A stretch of DNA of 64,000 nt from Spironucleus salmonicida (taxonomy: Eukaryota > Fornicata > Diplomonadida > Hexamitidae). Below the pieces are notes generated by a model, which searched no databases, was not told where the DNA came from, and saw nothing but the letters and a program-made list of their open reading frames with translations. Each line of letters starts with the position of its first letter. The first letter of the stretch is position 1. The stretch covers positions 1,112,001 to 1,176,000 of the forward strand of contig CM035318.1 of NCBI GenBank assembly GCA_000497125.2, written 5' to 3'. This document shows positions 2,514 to 8,700 of the stretch, in pieces. Made by a program: the position numbers and the translations under genes.

Positions 2514-2732
2514 GAAAATCGAGCAAATACTGGAAAATCACAGTACAAGTTCATTTTCACATGCATTGGAACATTTTAGAGCTGCATGTAATCCTGTTGC
2601 TAAATTAGTGAGTGTTTAATGAAATAGGGAAACCGGAATTGGCCAGTTTCCGATTAAGGCAGAATATGGCTCGTGAGACTAAAATTTTTTATTAAGTAAT
2701 TTTTGAGTTTTTCACATATTATACACCTATTA

Positions 2733-4298
2733 ATGGCAATTTTATTCAACAAACTACCTATAAGATTAAATATTATATCAATTGAATAAATTACACTCTG
2801 GAAAAGTTATGAATCAGAATATCTTTTCGAATCTATTACTGCAGTATATTGTAATTCGCTGATTTTCCTGCAAGAGGCGCAGATTCCGGCGGAGGCGACG
2901 CAGAATTTCACTGTGCAGCTGTCGGTACGCGCATACCGGGGCCAGATCTTACAGCAGAGCACTTTCTACACTTCGGAGCACATCAGCCTCGCGGAGCAGC
3001 GCACAGAGCTGCTGTTAGCGGAGGACCTGAATCTGGACATCACAATCGTGAGATCTGACAAGTATGCACAGTTCACTACGCTCCCCAACCTGTTAGTCTA
3101 GCTACCGTTCCAGGTGCAGCTCACCGTGCAGATCCAGTGCAACTTCTATGCGTTCGAAACGGAGCTGGTGGCATGTGGAGACAGCCTGTTCGCGGTAAAC
3201 CGGTCGGTAATTATCCCGTTTTAGACCTCTTTCCGGGTTTGCATATTTTCCACCCCGAGGGGCTAGATGAAGATGAAAGTAGCCTCATTTAGCGTTACCT
3301 ATATCGAGGCGCATAGCCAGTTGATCACCCTGAACTTTGCAGCCAAGTTCAGCGAGGAGATGGTCGCACAGGCCACAAACTCGCAAATGTTTGCCTGCAT
3401 GGGGCTTATTGAAGTTAACGATGGGTTTTAAGAGTTTCTTCCAGAGGAGAAGGTCATAAACAAGAACTACAAAAGCATAAAGAAGCTCAAAAAGATTGAT
3501 GACGTCCAAGGATAAATGCGGATAATTGTTAACAATACAAATTTACTGCATAAGGTTAACATCGCCAAGATCGAAAATTACGCTGAACAGTAACTGACTG
3601 GATCAGCAATGCTGTATAACTTTGAACCGTGTACCTATTTGGCTAATTCCTGGCTCAACTTACAAAATAGCGATCAGAAGGTTCAAAATAAAGTTTATCG
3701 GATTCAGAGTATGGGAACGCTCAACCTAAAATCTTTCGATTATAGCGGCGTGGTTGCATTTTATCGGTAGGGTGGCCAAATATATAACTCAATCCCTTAA
3801 TATTACGATTTTGGTGTTGAGGTTCGAGTGGCCAATCGACTATAGAATATTCTATCCCAATAACTGTTCATAATTGTAGTGTTAAATGAGAAGCAGTTCT
3901 TTAGACTCCCAATAGACTTACAAGAGTACAAAGAGAGTGTGTATAATAGTATTTTGAATAATAACCTGTATAAAATAATTCTTGAGGTAAAATTTTAGGA
4001 AGTTTAACTAGATCTAACATTTAATTTTTAAATATTTGATCAAGAGCTGAAGCAGTATTTGGTAGAGAAAGATGAACATACTCATCGGTAAATGCGTGAA
4101 ATTTAAAAAATTGAAGAGGAGAGATAAAAAGATTTGGATGAATTATAAAAAGGGATGCAAGACATTGCAGGAGATGAATATGAAAAAAAGAGAAAGAGGA
4201 AGAGAGTCAAAAAAATCGGGCATACCTGCGAAGACCATCCTAGTAGTAGCTAGACGGTATGTACACTTCCAGAGATGTCCAGTCCTAGTAATTTTTGA
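2733..4298 (+). CDS. Orphan protein, left inverted-repeat copy
   Basis: The frame is open from well upstream to a TGA at 4296-4298; ATG 2733 (521 aa) is a guess, and 2619 is an in-frame alternative. The part inside the repeat arm (2853 onward) is identical to the right copy apart from one codon seen, AAC (Asn) at 3558-3560. The protein looks beta-rich in its GC-rich first half and more AT-rich in the second, with a lysine/arginine-rich tail near residues 440-510. I do not recognise a family. Upstream of the arm the N-terminal sequence is unrelated to that of the right copy. Thus one copy has a chimaeric or truncated start, and this one could receive upstream exons from the 1965 gene. Confidence 0.6.
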
Positions 4299-4412
4299 TT
4301 ATAAGCATCATTTTAAAGTTTATTGACTGTCATATAGCATTATCAACTATCATTACTATAAGTATGCGGGCCATTTTTGCACTGCAACGCAATAACTATC
4401 GAAAAGTAATAA
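2853..4412 (+). repeat. Left arm of 1,560-bp inverted repeat
   Basis: This segment reappears in reverse orientation at 6898-8457 with the same length and no gap seen. Three long stretches translate identically in both arms. The one base difference noticed is A at 3558 against T in the mirrored copy (position 7752). Identity stops abruptly at both edges. The arm covers most of one orphan gene plus its 3' flank. No terminal repeats, target-site duplication or transposase is visible, so it looks like a segmental inverted duplication. Confidence 0.95.
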
Positions 4413-4605
4413 TAATATAGTATTAAATATTATGTATAAATTTAATAACAGATTAGTTTAGATTATACACAGAGAATTGATCTACATTAAATACATCTTA
4501 AATTCATGATTACGTAATCAAAGCGAAAGAAATGTAGGGTAGGTAACATTTTGCCTAAATTTCATTATTTTATTATAATTAGTAAAATATTTTTAAATCG
4601 TCATA

Positions 4606-5199
4606 ATGAGTGATTAAGAAGAATCGAATTAAGAAAATTTAAGTGAATATTTCACTTGCCCTATTTGTTTGGATATTCTTAATTATCCAGTAATGATTTC
4701 ATGTGGACATTTAACATGTTTTTCGTGTTTATAACATACCAATGAAAACTCTGAGAATATATCTTGTCCAGTTTGTCAATGCCCAATAAAGCCAAAAGAA
4801 GTAAAAGCTGCATTTATAGGAAAATAAGTGGGTGAAGATACTAGAGGTGATATTGTCAAAGGGTTTGAAGATGCTGATAAGCTTAGAAAAGAAAGAGCTG
4901 CACAAAATGTTTAAAATCAAGGAAATTTCAGATTTTAGTTAGGAATGGGAGGTTTAGGTCTTATGGGAGGAATTCCAGGTTTAAATATTAATATTAATGG
5001 TTTCCCTGGTGGGGTTCGTATTAATCAAGGCCCATAAGTCCCTGCTGAACCATTGACTTTTAAGTAAAAGTTAAATAAGTTTACAAAAAAAGTTGGTGCT
5101 ATCGCTTTATTTGGTCTTGTGATTTATTTATAAATAAAAGAATCAGTTAATGAATTTAAAGTTGGTGGTTAAAAAGTTGTTTATTACCATTTTCCATGA
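4606..5199 (+). CDS. RING-finger protein with C-terminal membrane anchor (RNF5/RNF185-like E3)
   Basis: The protein has 197 aa. A C3HC4 RING lies at about residues 16-58, with CPICLD, CGHLTC and CPVC as its cysteine/histidine pairs. Then comes a Gly/Met/Ile-rich linker and one hydrophobic segment near residues 165-180 (GAIALFGLVIYL) close to the C terminus. This is the layout of small ER-anchored ubiquitin ligases such as RNF5/RNF185, which act in ER quality control; that role is inferred from architecture. It sits in the unique spacer between the two repeat arms, transcribed convergently with the PQ-loop gene, with 99 bp between their stops. Confidence 0.85.
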
Positions 5200-5298
5200 T
5201 GATTAATGATTACTTTTACAGATTTTTATAAGTTTTTACTTATTTTCAGTAATTATAATATAAAGTTATAATAATATAGTATCCAAATAACTTTCAGT

Positions 5299-6207
5299 TC
5301 AAACTTAACTACTAATAGCTAGATCTGCAGTTTTTTCTTCTTTTGTTTCCTCGTCCTAAAAGCTAGGATTGTTTTTAGACGGAGTAAATTTTCTATAATA
5401 TACAAATTATGCTAAAATAACAGCGTCTAAACAAGCTGGAACAATAGCTGCAATATAGAATGCAATTTAGTCATAGTTAACTTCATTAGGAGAATTAATC
5501 TTAGTATTAATAGTATCAATTAATAATGTAATAAATTAAGTAACATTAGCTAATAATGCAATGATAAACATTACTATGCTAAGCCCTTCGACAGATCTCC
5601 TTTTATAATTTTTATAAATTTGAAACGGCCGCGTCATAATGTAAAAGGGTATAGCTGTATAAGATAGTATATTGCCAAAAATACGTCTCCAATTGGATAA
5701 AGTACCTTCAGAACAAGTAGAATATTTTGTTGGCTAAACTTTAAATAACTATGCTTATAAAATACCATAAATAACGATCGAAATTATAACAGTTGAGATT
5801 ATCAACAAATATATAATAATTTCCAAAGGTCTTAGTTTAATTGAAACACCAGTATTCTTCGAATTTCTAAAAAATATCTGCTAAAACACCAAAACAATGT
5901 CAGTAGTGATCCATATAACAGCTAAAATTTTCTATGTGAAAAGCAAATCTAAAATAAAAACGGAAACTAAATTTAAAAAATCAGCCCCTAACCACTGAAA
6001 TATTAACCAAGCTGACAAAGCTCCTACTTCTCTTGTTATAAATTAATCACGAGCTTGTGGATACAGAGCAATAATCCATAGTGAAAGAGAAATCCATCCA
6101 AAAATAAAAGAATAGAGTTATAGATTAGTGTATATACATGTATTAAATGATGCATTTATAAAATAGATAGGGTCAATCTTATTTTGCTAACCACAGATGC
6201 ATTACAT
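5299..6207 (-). CDS. PQ-loop repeat membrane protein (PQLC2/Ypq-like transporter)
   Basis: The protein has 302 aa with about seven hydrophobic segments. A PQ-loop motif is visible in the first membrane pair (IALYPQAR, near residue 50). A second motif, where the Pro-Gln is replaced by Arg-Pro (MTRPFQIYKN, near 197), is followed by RRSVEGLSIVMF, typical of this family. Relatives are lysosomal or vacuolar exporters of cationic amino acids (PQLC2, Ypq1-3), so a role in the endolysosome is likely. The substrate is not determined by the sequence. The tail is acidic and charged. It is the second gene in the repeat spacer. Confidence 0.8.
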
Positions 6208-6897
6208 TTTCAAAATATTTACTTTTCAGTATTTAATATAATATAAGTTTATATTAATTTATTATTTGTGCTTGTCGAAAATATTATTATACTTTGCAAA
6301 ATTAAAGTTTTACCTATAATATAGACCTAAAAATTGTAAAAACTTAAGAAGAATTAATATATGGATATAAACATAAAATTAGTGTTCTAATATTCAGTAA
6401 TTGTGATTATATAATTATGAATATACTGATATTAATTTTATTTAATTAATAGTATTAACCTTAATAATCATTATTTAATATAATTAAGAAAACACAAAAT
6501 GATGTACAAAATGTTGTGAATTAAATATAAACATAAATGCATGTATAATAGATCAAAAATTCTACTTAGATATATGTCAAGTATAGAATAAGTAAATTGA
6601 TACTAATAGAATATTTATATTTGACGAAGTACTAAAATAAGAATAACCAAAATCGAAAATCATGTAATTTAATTTTGTATATCTAAAAGGACTATTATAT
6701 ATAAGTGTTATTGTTGAGTTTTATAAGTGATTTTATTAATAAAATTTATAAATGTTCAGAAACTCTAGATATGTAAATTTTAAATTAATTTCTATCGCAG
6801 ATAAAATAAACGCTTTACTGGGAACTATTTATATTATAGTCAGTATTTTGTTGTAAAGCTACAATAATATCTAATATGCATATCTAACAATTAGTTT
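6208..6897. other. Intergenic, AT-rich, no gene seen
   Basis: About 690 bp of very AT-rich spacer separate the PQ-loop start and the right repeat arm. It should hold the promoter of the minus-strand transporter. I see no convincing reading frame or RNA. Confidence 0.5.
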
Positions 6898-8457
6898 TTA
6901 TTACTTTTCGATAGTTATTGCGTTGCAGTGCAAAAATGGCCCGCATACTTATAGTAATGATAGTTGATAATGCTATATGACAGTCAATAAACTTTAAAAT
7001 GATGCTTATAATCAAAAATTACTAGGACTGGACATCTCTGGAAGTGTACATACCGTCTAGCTACTACTAGGATGGTCTTCGCAGGTATGCCCGATTTTTT
7101 TGACTCTCTTCCTCTTTCTCTTTTTTTCATATTCATCTCCTGCAATGTCTTGCATCCCTTTTTATAATTCATCCAAATCTTTTTATCTCTCCTCTTCAAT
7201 TTTTTAAATTTCACGCATTTACCGATGAGTATGTTCATCTTTCTCTACCAAATACTGCTTCAGCTCTTGATCAAATATTTAAAAATTAAATGTTAGATCT
7301 AGTTAAACTTCCTAAAATTTTACCTCAAGAATTATTTTATACAGGTTATTATTCAAAATACTATTATACACACTCTCTTTGTACTCTTGTAAGTCTATTG
7401 GGAGTCTAAAGAACTGCTTCTCATTTAACACTACAATTATGAACAGTTATTGGGATAGAATATTCTATAGTCGATTGGCCACTCGAACCTCAACACCAAA
7501 ATCGTAATATTAAGGGATTGAGTTATATATTTGGCCACCCTACCGATAAAATGCAACCACGCCGCTATAATCGAAAGATTTTAGGTTGAGCGTTCCCATA
7601 CTCTGAATCCGATAAACTTTATTTTGAACCTTCTGATCGCTATTTTGTAAGTTGAGCCAGGAATTAGCCAAATAGGTACACGGTTCAAAGTTATACAGCA
7701 TTGCTGATCCAGTCAGTTACTGTTCAGCGTAATTTTCGATCTTGGCGATGTAAACCTTATGCAGTAAATTTGTATTGTTAACAATTATCCGCATTTATCC
7801 TTGGACGTCATCAATCTTTTTGAGCTTCTTTATGCTTTTGTAGTTCTTGTTTATGACCTTCTCCTCTGGAAGAAACTCTTAAAACCCATCGTTAACTTCA
7901 ATAAGCCCCATGCAGGCAAACATTTGCGAGTTTGTGGCCTGTGCGACCATCTCCTCGCTGAACTTGGCTGCAAAGTTCAGGGTGATCAACTGGCTATGCG
8001 CCTCGATATAGGTAACGCTAAATGAGGCTACTTTCATCTTCATCTAGCCCCTCGGGGTGGAAAATATGCAAACCCGGAAAGAGGTCTAAAACGGGATAAT
8101 TACCGACCGGTTTACCGCGAACAGGCTGTCTCCACATGCCACCAGCTCCGTTTCGAACGCATAGAAGTTGCACTGGATCTGCACGGTGAGCTGCACCTGG
8201 AACGGTAGCTAGACTAACAGGTTGGGGAGCGTAGTGAACTGTGCATACTTGTCAGATCTCACGATTGTGATGTCCAGATTCAGGTCCTCCGCTAACAGCA
8301 GCTCTGTGCGCTGCTCCGCGAGGCTGATGTGCTCCGAAGTGTAGAAAGTGCTCTGCTGTAAGATCTGGCCCCGGTATGCGCGTACCGACAGCTGCACAGT
8401 GAAATTCTGCGTCGCCTCCGCCGGAATCTGCGCCTCTTGCAGGAAAATCAGCGAATT
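6898..8457 (-). repeat. Right arm of 1,560-bp inverted repeat
   Basis: Reverse-complement partner of 2853-4412, same length. The 2,485-bp unique spacer between the arms would allow a very large hairpin or inversion by recombination. At 7752 the base is A where the mirrored left copy predicts T. Confidence 0.95.
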
Positions 8458-8523
8458 TGATTGTACAGGTACCAGGATTAGTGAGTGATGTAAGAAGTTA
8501 AATTAAAATTAAATCTGCACCAT
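7012..8523 (-). CDS. Orphan protein, right inverted-repeat copy
   Basis: The frame of 503 aa runs from an ATG just outside the arm to the TGA mirrored from the left copy. The first 22 residues or so come from unique flanking DNA. The ATG directly follows TTCCACT, which resembles the start-proximal element of other genes, so this copy may be expressed from a newly acquired start. The rest equals the left copy except that codon AAC (Asn) becomes TAC (Tyr) at 7750-7752 on the plus strand. I recognise no family. The first half is GC-rich and beta-like, and the C terminus is highly charged. Confidence 0.65.
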
Positions 8524-8700
8524 AGTGGAACTTTACACACCCAAATGTGATAAATCAGTTTTTAAACTAATTTAGTACATTTGAATAAAGTACTCTATAT
8601 AAATATAATATTTAATTTTAAGTGATAACACTTGCTTTTGGGAATAAAAATATTAACATATATTAATAATGAATATATTAAATTATACTCGATATCGTAC

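Follow-up and report, generated by a model that had tools for sequence, protein, structure and literature searches.

A near-identical inverted repeat around a gene-bearing spacer in Spironucleus salmonicida, and its siblings in the same genome

The repeat, its orphan gene and its spacer

The DNA analysed here (the window: 64,000 nucleotides, positions 1,112,001 to 1,176,000 of the forward strand of contig CM035318.1, assembly GCA_000497125.2) is diplomonad nuclear DNA, from the unicellular parasite of fish Spironucleus salmonicida or a very close relative. It lies on a contig of 1,815,816 bases, and the genome in which we carried out our searches comprises 14.47 Mb in 37 contigs. The element in question is an inverted repeat, whose two arms enclose a spacer with two genes:

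2853..4412, + strand: arm 1, 1,560 bp, in ungapped register with arm 2
6898..8457, - strand: arm 2, 1,560 bp, in ungapped register with arm 1
4413..6897, no strand: unique spacer, 2,485 bp, guanine-cytosine (GC) content 0.251, with two genes
3558, + strand: sole mismatch between the arms, A at 3558 against T (gene strand) at 7752, which gives Asn in arm 1 and Tyr in arm 2

Arm 1 and the reverse complement of arm 2 align gap-free, with the same base at 1559 of 1560 positions (2853+k pairs with 8457-k), and BLAST extends the pair to 1563 bp with 2 mismatches; a match of this length and identity is far beyond chance. A preliminary description, made from the letters of the window, had proposed near-identical arms of equal length with abrupt edges and had warned that scattered differences between them would speak against it. 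The full alignment, with its single difference in 1560, bears this description out. Identity drops abruptly at the outer and the inner edges, and the adjoining 150 bp show no homology above that of random genomic segments of similar GC content, of which 103 of 200 score at least as high as the sequences beyond the inner edges and 169 of 200 as high as those beyond the outer edges. A genome DNA search with positions 2700-8600 found the spacer and both outer flanks in single copy, and no third copy of the arm appeared in DNA and protein searches of the window's genome, the counts given by the tool being lower bounds. The arms (GC 0.409) are richer in GC than the spacer and than the 1-kb outer flanks (0.342).

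Each arm contains one long frame, which stops inside the arm and remains open across the outer edge. The frame thus runs into unrelated flanks, so that the gene, an orphan, has two possible N-termini. Its two copies converge on the two spacer genes, which themselves lie tail to tail:

2733..4298, + strand: orphan gene copy 1, open reading frame (ORF) in code 6, 521 aa from the ATG at 2733, or 570 aa if read from 2586; shared with copy 2 from 2853 onwards
7012..8580, - strand: orphan gene copy 2, 522 aa, with the N-terminus of UniRef V6LSK0
4606..5199, + strand: spacer gene 1, RING-finger protein, 197 aa (PF15227, 4e-10, and other RING models)
5299..6207, - strand: spacer gene 2, PQ-loop membrane protein, 302 aa (PF04193, 3e-21)

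Genes of the window read through only if TAA and TAG encode Gln, and with this code the three identical translated stretches that had been listed separately in the arms become pieces of one frame, while their identity stands. The sole database homologue of the arm gene is V6LSK0, an uncharacterised S. salmonicida protein (99% identity over 93% of the query), which combines the N-terminus found in the context of arm 2 with the Asn of arm 1 at the single variable site. We found no Pfam family for the arm protein, no relative in the PDB (best E 0.33) and, in the window, no Rfam family that reaches its gathering score; a single-sequence AlphaFold2 model was unusable (mean pLDDT 35.6). The 521 residues include 8 cysteines and no CXXC motif. 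At the outer edge of arm 1 the GC content of third codon positions (GC3) rises from 0.15 in the 40 codons upstream to 0.72 in the first 40 codons inside, and the two upstream extensions have codon scores of -2.2 and -2.5 bits against about +83 for the shared 481 codons. A real gene, that of the PQ-loop protein, scores -9.8, so the codon score cannot show the AT-rich extensions to be noncoding.

Two other views of the arm gene were dropped. A retrocopy origin, considered for the inner edge that follows an AGTAAT motif, was given up on the basis of the literature, because the arm continues for 114 nt beyond the stop codon, with which the polyadenylation signal overlaps in S. salmonicida (PMC3916229). 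A two-intron gene that would join the ORF at 1965-2432 to the arm (GT/AG-like sites were picked out by eye) was abandoned in view of the few introns reported for this genome, only four, with an AC-repeat motif (PMC9509377, PMC3916229). The ORF itself (1965-2432, + strand) adjoins arm 1, encodes a GC-rich orphan of 155 aa (GC3 0.61), is single copy in the genome search and terminates in AGTGA, a reported stop/polyadenylation motif.

The RING-finger gene of the spacer has two weak matches elsewhere in the genome, and the PQ-loop gene four paralogues (36-46% identity). Two of the latter (G000:C6:1354441-1355274 and 1381926-1382762; 46% and 45% identity to the spacer gene) lie ~27 kb apart in the same orientation.

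Sibling pairs and GC composition

The preliminary description treated the repeat as a singleton. Our survey by BLAST of 264 kb around the window (the repeat included) and of 40 kb chosen blind on another contig does not agree with this, as the repeat is one of eight inverted pairs in these 304 kb. In the 264 kb there are nine self-repeats of at least 480 bp, seven inverted and two direct. The inverted ones measure 12,088, 6,906, 4,015, 3,649, 1,995 (cut by the end of the stretch), 1,563 (the repeat described above) and 487 bp and have spacers of 1.2-7.3 kb; the direct ones measure 4,910 and 1,255 bp, and their copies are 13 and 20.5 kb apart. The blind stretch contains one repeat, also inverted (821 bp, 98.8% identity, spacer 12.2 kb), and identity across all eight inverted pairs is 97.7-99.9%. 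The inverted share is thus 8 of 10 (one-sided binomial 0.055), or 8 of 9 (0.020) if one leaves out the 4,910-bp direct pair, which follows from two overlapping inverted pairs. We refer to the other inverted pairs as P1-P5, P7 and the C5 pair and to the direct ones as D1 and D2 (G000:C3 is the window's contig):

G000:C3:1028755-1040829 and 1045741-1057813, inverted: P1, 12-kb arms with a 4.9-kb spacer
G000:C3:1083424-1106273, alternating: P2, P4 and D1, one segment in three copies
G000:C3:1236089-1247789, inverted: P3, 4,015 bp
G000:C3:1216535-1224814, inverted: P7, 487 bp
G000:C3:1012001-1018733, inverted: P5, at least 1,995 bp
G000:C5:308592-322439, inverted: C5 pair, 821 bp

A genome search with an 8.8-kb piece of the largest pair returned two copies, which are its two arms. 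Four of seven arm ORFs matched a family in a scan: a PALP enzyme (in P1, GC3 0.98), an F420 ligase-like protein, a serine carboxypeptidase S28 (in a direct pair) and a CHY zinc finger (a match below the cut-off). Among 11 tests for decayed homology beyond the edges of P1, P2, P3, P5 (inner edge), P7 and the repeat in the window, none gave a signal at the latter; the strongest elsewhere came from the inner edge of P7, where 2 of 200 controls were as high.

The arms, direct ones included, have a GC content of 0.541 against 0.312 outside; when the arm mask was shifted circularly 2000 times, the difference was never as large. The median GC3 of ORFs of at least 150 aa is 0.56 in arms (29 ORFs) and 0.27 outside (114), with values in arms up to 0.98; ORF calls were mechanical, arm ORFs are those at least 80% inside, copies were counted twice, and 11 of 154 ORFs partly in arms were left out. 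Noncoding sequence follows the same division (0.489 in arms, 0.273 outside). For duplicated regions of S. salmonicida a GC content of 44.7% is reported, against 30.7% elsewhere (PMC9509377). The arms are richer in GC than the spacer in seven of the eight inverted pairs (the exception is P4); in P2, P4 and P5 the outer flanks have a higher GC content than the arms. Eleven ORFs outside the arms also have GC3 of at least 0.5, and three genome DNA searches, which covered three such ORFs whole and two in part, revealed no second copy; such single-copy GC-rich stretches speak against GC richness as a consequence of duplication alone. GC-rich ORFs (GC3 0.63-0.75) in AT-rich surroundings, with no second copy found, occur at G000:C3:1072001-1074845, 1178079-1178996 and 1060042-1062000.

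Origin and upkeep of the arms

The reading that we prefer, with somewhat more credence than doubt, is that of a spaced palindrome: an inverted duplication made by break repair and probably kept alike by conversion. Repair of a break, or replication with a template switch, would have copied most of one GC-rich gene in inverted orientation around a 2.5-kb unique spacer; since then, the arms would have paired with each other along the chromosome and undergone conversion without crossover, which would hold their divergence near that between alleles. Now and then a crossover could occur, and it would invert the spacer together with the RING-finger and PQ-loop genes. That the spacer could flip, as had been suggested, is mechanically plausible, but by analogy this would be a rare event and no switch: in a human Y palindrome, 56 conversions were counted against 3 inversions among 83 chromosomes (PMC3723533).

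For the duplication step, a candidate template-switch scar is present at one edge:

4403..4423, + strand: 21-nt sequence that straddles the inner edge of arm 1, with 10 nt inside the arm
5262..5282, + strand: second copy of the 21-nt sequence in the spacer, 20 of 21 letters matching, 859 bp downstream

The local-match score of this 21-nt probe is 18, against a maximum of 15 among 274 AT-rich control probes; the other seven edge probes score 9-13, and at the other three edges none exceeds the controls. A genome search with the 21-nt pattern found no other place at 0 mismatches and one at a single mismatch, and a reversed control pattern hit three genome places within one mismatch. The repeat would fit a template switch during repair, and it hints that arm 1 may be the newer copy.

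For upkeep by conversion, the evidence comes only from the two largest siblings. In P1, 271 of 293 mismatches (MAFFT) fall within 900 bp and the remaining arm is about 99.8% identical, and in P2, 72 of 110 fall within 400 bp and the remainder is about 99.4% identical (BLAST counts 253 mismatches and 14 gaps in P1 and 105 and 7 in P2). The diverged patch of P1 (~0.9 kb) consists of homologous coding sequence and is sharply bounded at either end. Such mosaics would most simply come from non-reciprocal exchange, which either homogenised the arms except for an island or brought in a tract from another copy. The repeat in the window has no such patch, and conversion there may be surmised by extension from P1 and P2. 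The arm divergence of P3, P5, P7 and this repeat (0.06-0.2%) is close to the allelic heterozygosity of S. salmonicida, 0.09% (PMC9509377). Other points in favour of the preferred reading are the near-identity of the arms with their sharp edges, the presence of no more than two copies in the genome searches, the preponderance of inverted over direct pairs, the 21-nt repeat, and V6LSK0, which joins the N-terminus of arm 2 to the residue of arm 1.

It is possible, although we find it doubtful, that there was only a recent inverted duplication, a single copying event shortly before the sequenced culture, and that the excess of inverted pairs is mere survivorship, close direct repeats having been lost through recombination or merged by the assembler. 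With a single difference between the arms, and with edges that are abrupt and lack residual homology, nothing more is needed, and the copies of the two direct repeats do lie further apart. It is less easy to reconcile with this view that five pairs (P3, P5, P7, D2 and the repeat in the window) have equally low divergence and that BLAST in the 264 kb found nothing intermediate between the near-identical long repeats and matches of at most 152 bp at 78-92%; moreover, the patches of P1 and P2 suggest that some pairs are old and yet otherwise near-identical. The dichotomy of recent duplication and ongoing conversion that had been posed at the outset is therefore sound, with the locus itself fitting both and the evidence for conversion coming from its siblings.

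Several points weigh against the spaced palindrome kept alike by conversion. At the locus, recent duplication alone explains the data. The locus is known from the assembly, which could conceal collapse, allelic mixing or orientation variants. The residue swap in V6LSK0 could mean either that an older assembly mixed the arms, or that the site is allelic, or that it was converted, and it may be a mix in a short-read consensus. The sibling survey covers mostly one 264-kb stretch, the binomial is generous, as three pairs share one locus, and the inverted bias could also arise if direct repeats at short distance were lost or collapsed. The 21-nt test is weak: it is post hoc, the probe is one of eight in AT-rich DNA, and it takes 10 of its 21 letters from the arm. 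These 10 letters are needed for the signal, since a probe at this inner edge that begins immediately beyond the arm scores 12, which is within the controls.

An assembly artefact, with a false second arm introduced in assembly or through chimeric reads, appears improbable, and the structure at the locus is probably real. In protein collection searches both spacer genes matched only the window's own proteins (cut-offs 1e-60 and 1e-10), and the arm gene was present from S. salmonicida; this suggests that an older assembly may have lost the spacer or the arrangement, no unrelated control gene having been searched, and artificial palindromes through scaffolding errors are a concern stated elsewhere (PMC7953838). 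However, the outer flanks differ, and flanks and spacer have no second copy, unlike what a read fold-back would leave; the arms are not fully identical, one base being different; and the published assembly was made from PacBio reads with an N50 of 14.6 kb at 161x (PMC9509377), which exceeds the 5.6-kb structure.

A mobile element with long terminal inverted repeats, or a programmed invertible switch for expression of the spacer genes, is very improbable: equal inverted arms do flank two genes, whose neighbours a flip would swap, but the arms consist for the most part of one gene's coding sequence, no dispersed copies were found, none of the 9 ORFs tested is a transposase or recombinase, as the preliminary description had held for transposases (no search was aimed at recombinases in the rest of the genome), and its claim that there is no target-site duplication holds for direct repeats of at least 20 nt around the arm (12 kb), with shorter ones not excluded.

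Comparison with known systems

Taken alone, the repeat would be an ordinary recent inverted duplication in a duplicate-rich genome, 19.2% of the S. salmonicida assembly being duplicated (at least 2 kb, 95%), often as single genes (PMC9509377). The surprising point is that near-identical, GC-rich pairs in inverted orientation are locally in excess. The repeat in the window falls below the 2-kb limit of that catalogue, and the words "inverted", "palindrom-" and "orientation" are absent from the text of PMC9509377. Our literature search, with most subscription papers outside its coverage, found no report of palindromes in Spironucleus, and both genome papers lack "inverted" and "palindrom-". Eight inverted pairs in 304 kb suggest a possible means by which a binucleate diplomonad could hold duplicates identical, and whether inverted duplication and conversion bear on the duplicated, GC-rich fifth of the genome becomes a question that can be tested. 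We offer only tentatively, as something that may well not hold, the broader proposal that the genome is organised in local spaced palindromes, with an inverted twin within about 12 kb for most duplicates, and that continuous GC-biased conversion shifts the composition of the arms well away from the genome mean. If this were true, the genome would offer a compact natural setting in which to study how palindromes drive GC-biased gene conversion outside sex chromosomes, and such conversion would act on ordinary enzymes and orphan genes, beyond surface antigens.

Like the repeat described here, mammalian X and Y palindromes have arms more than 99% identical, a unique spacer, genes in the arms and GC-rich arms (PMC3723533, PMC8981503), and in primate X palindromes the GC richness was read as GC-biased conversion (PMC8981503). 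The mammalian palindromes are large, and conversion has been shown in populations and between species, whereas the arms of the protist measure 0.5-12 kb and conversion is what we infer. Adineta vaga and other parthenogenetic animals likewise have inverted duplicates on the same chromosome, with conversion proposed to act without outcrossing (PMC7953838); palindromes were found there in 10 of 23 species screened and involve at most 1.3% of genes, and the authors caution about scaffolding errors (PMC7953838). In Giardia, also a diplomonad, identical copies of variant surface protein (VSP) genes face each other or diverge, with other genes between them. The Giardia pairs belong to a large family of such proteins, whereas the gene in the window is an orphan with no other copy found and no CXXC motif, and the sibling arms carry enzymes, e.g. 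PALP. Seven such VSP pairs, 1.7-8.8 kb apart, are reported from G. muris (PMC7641422), and 12 convergent and 7 divergent ones from G. intestinalis WB (PMC7000408).

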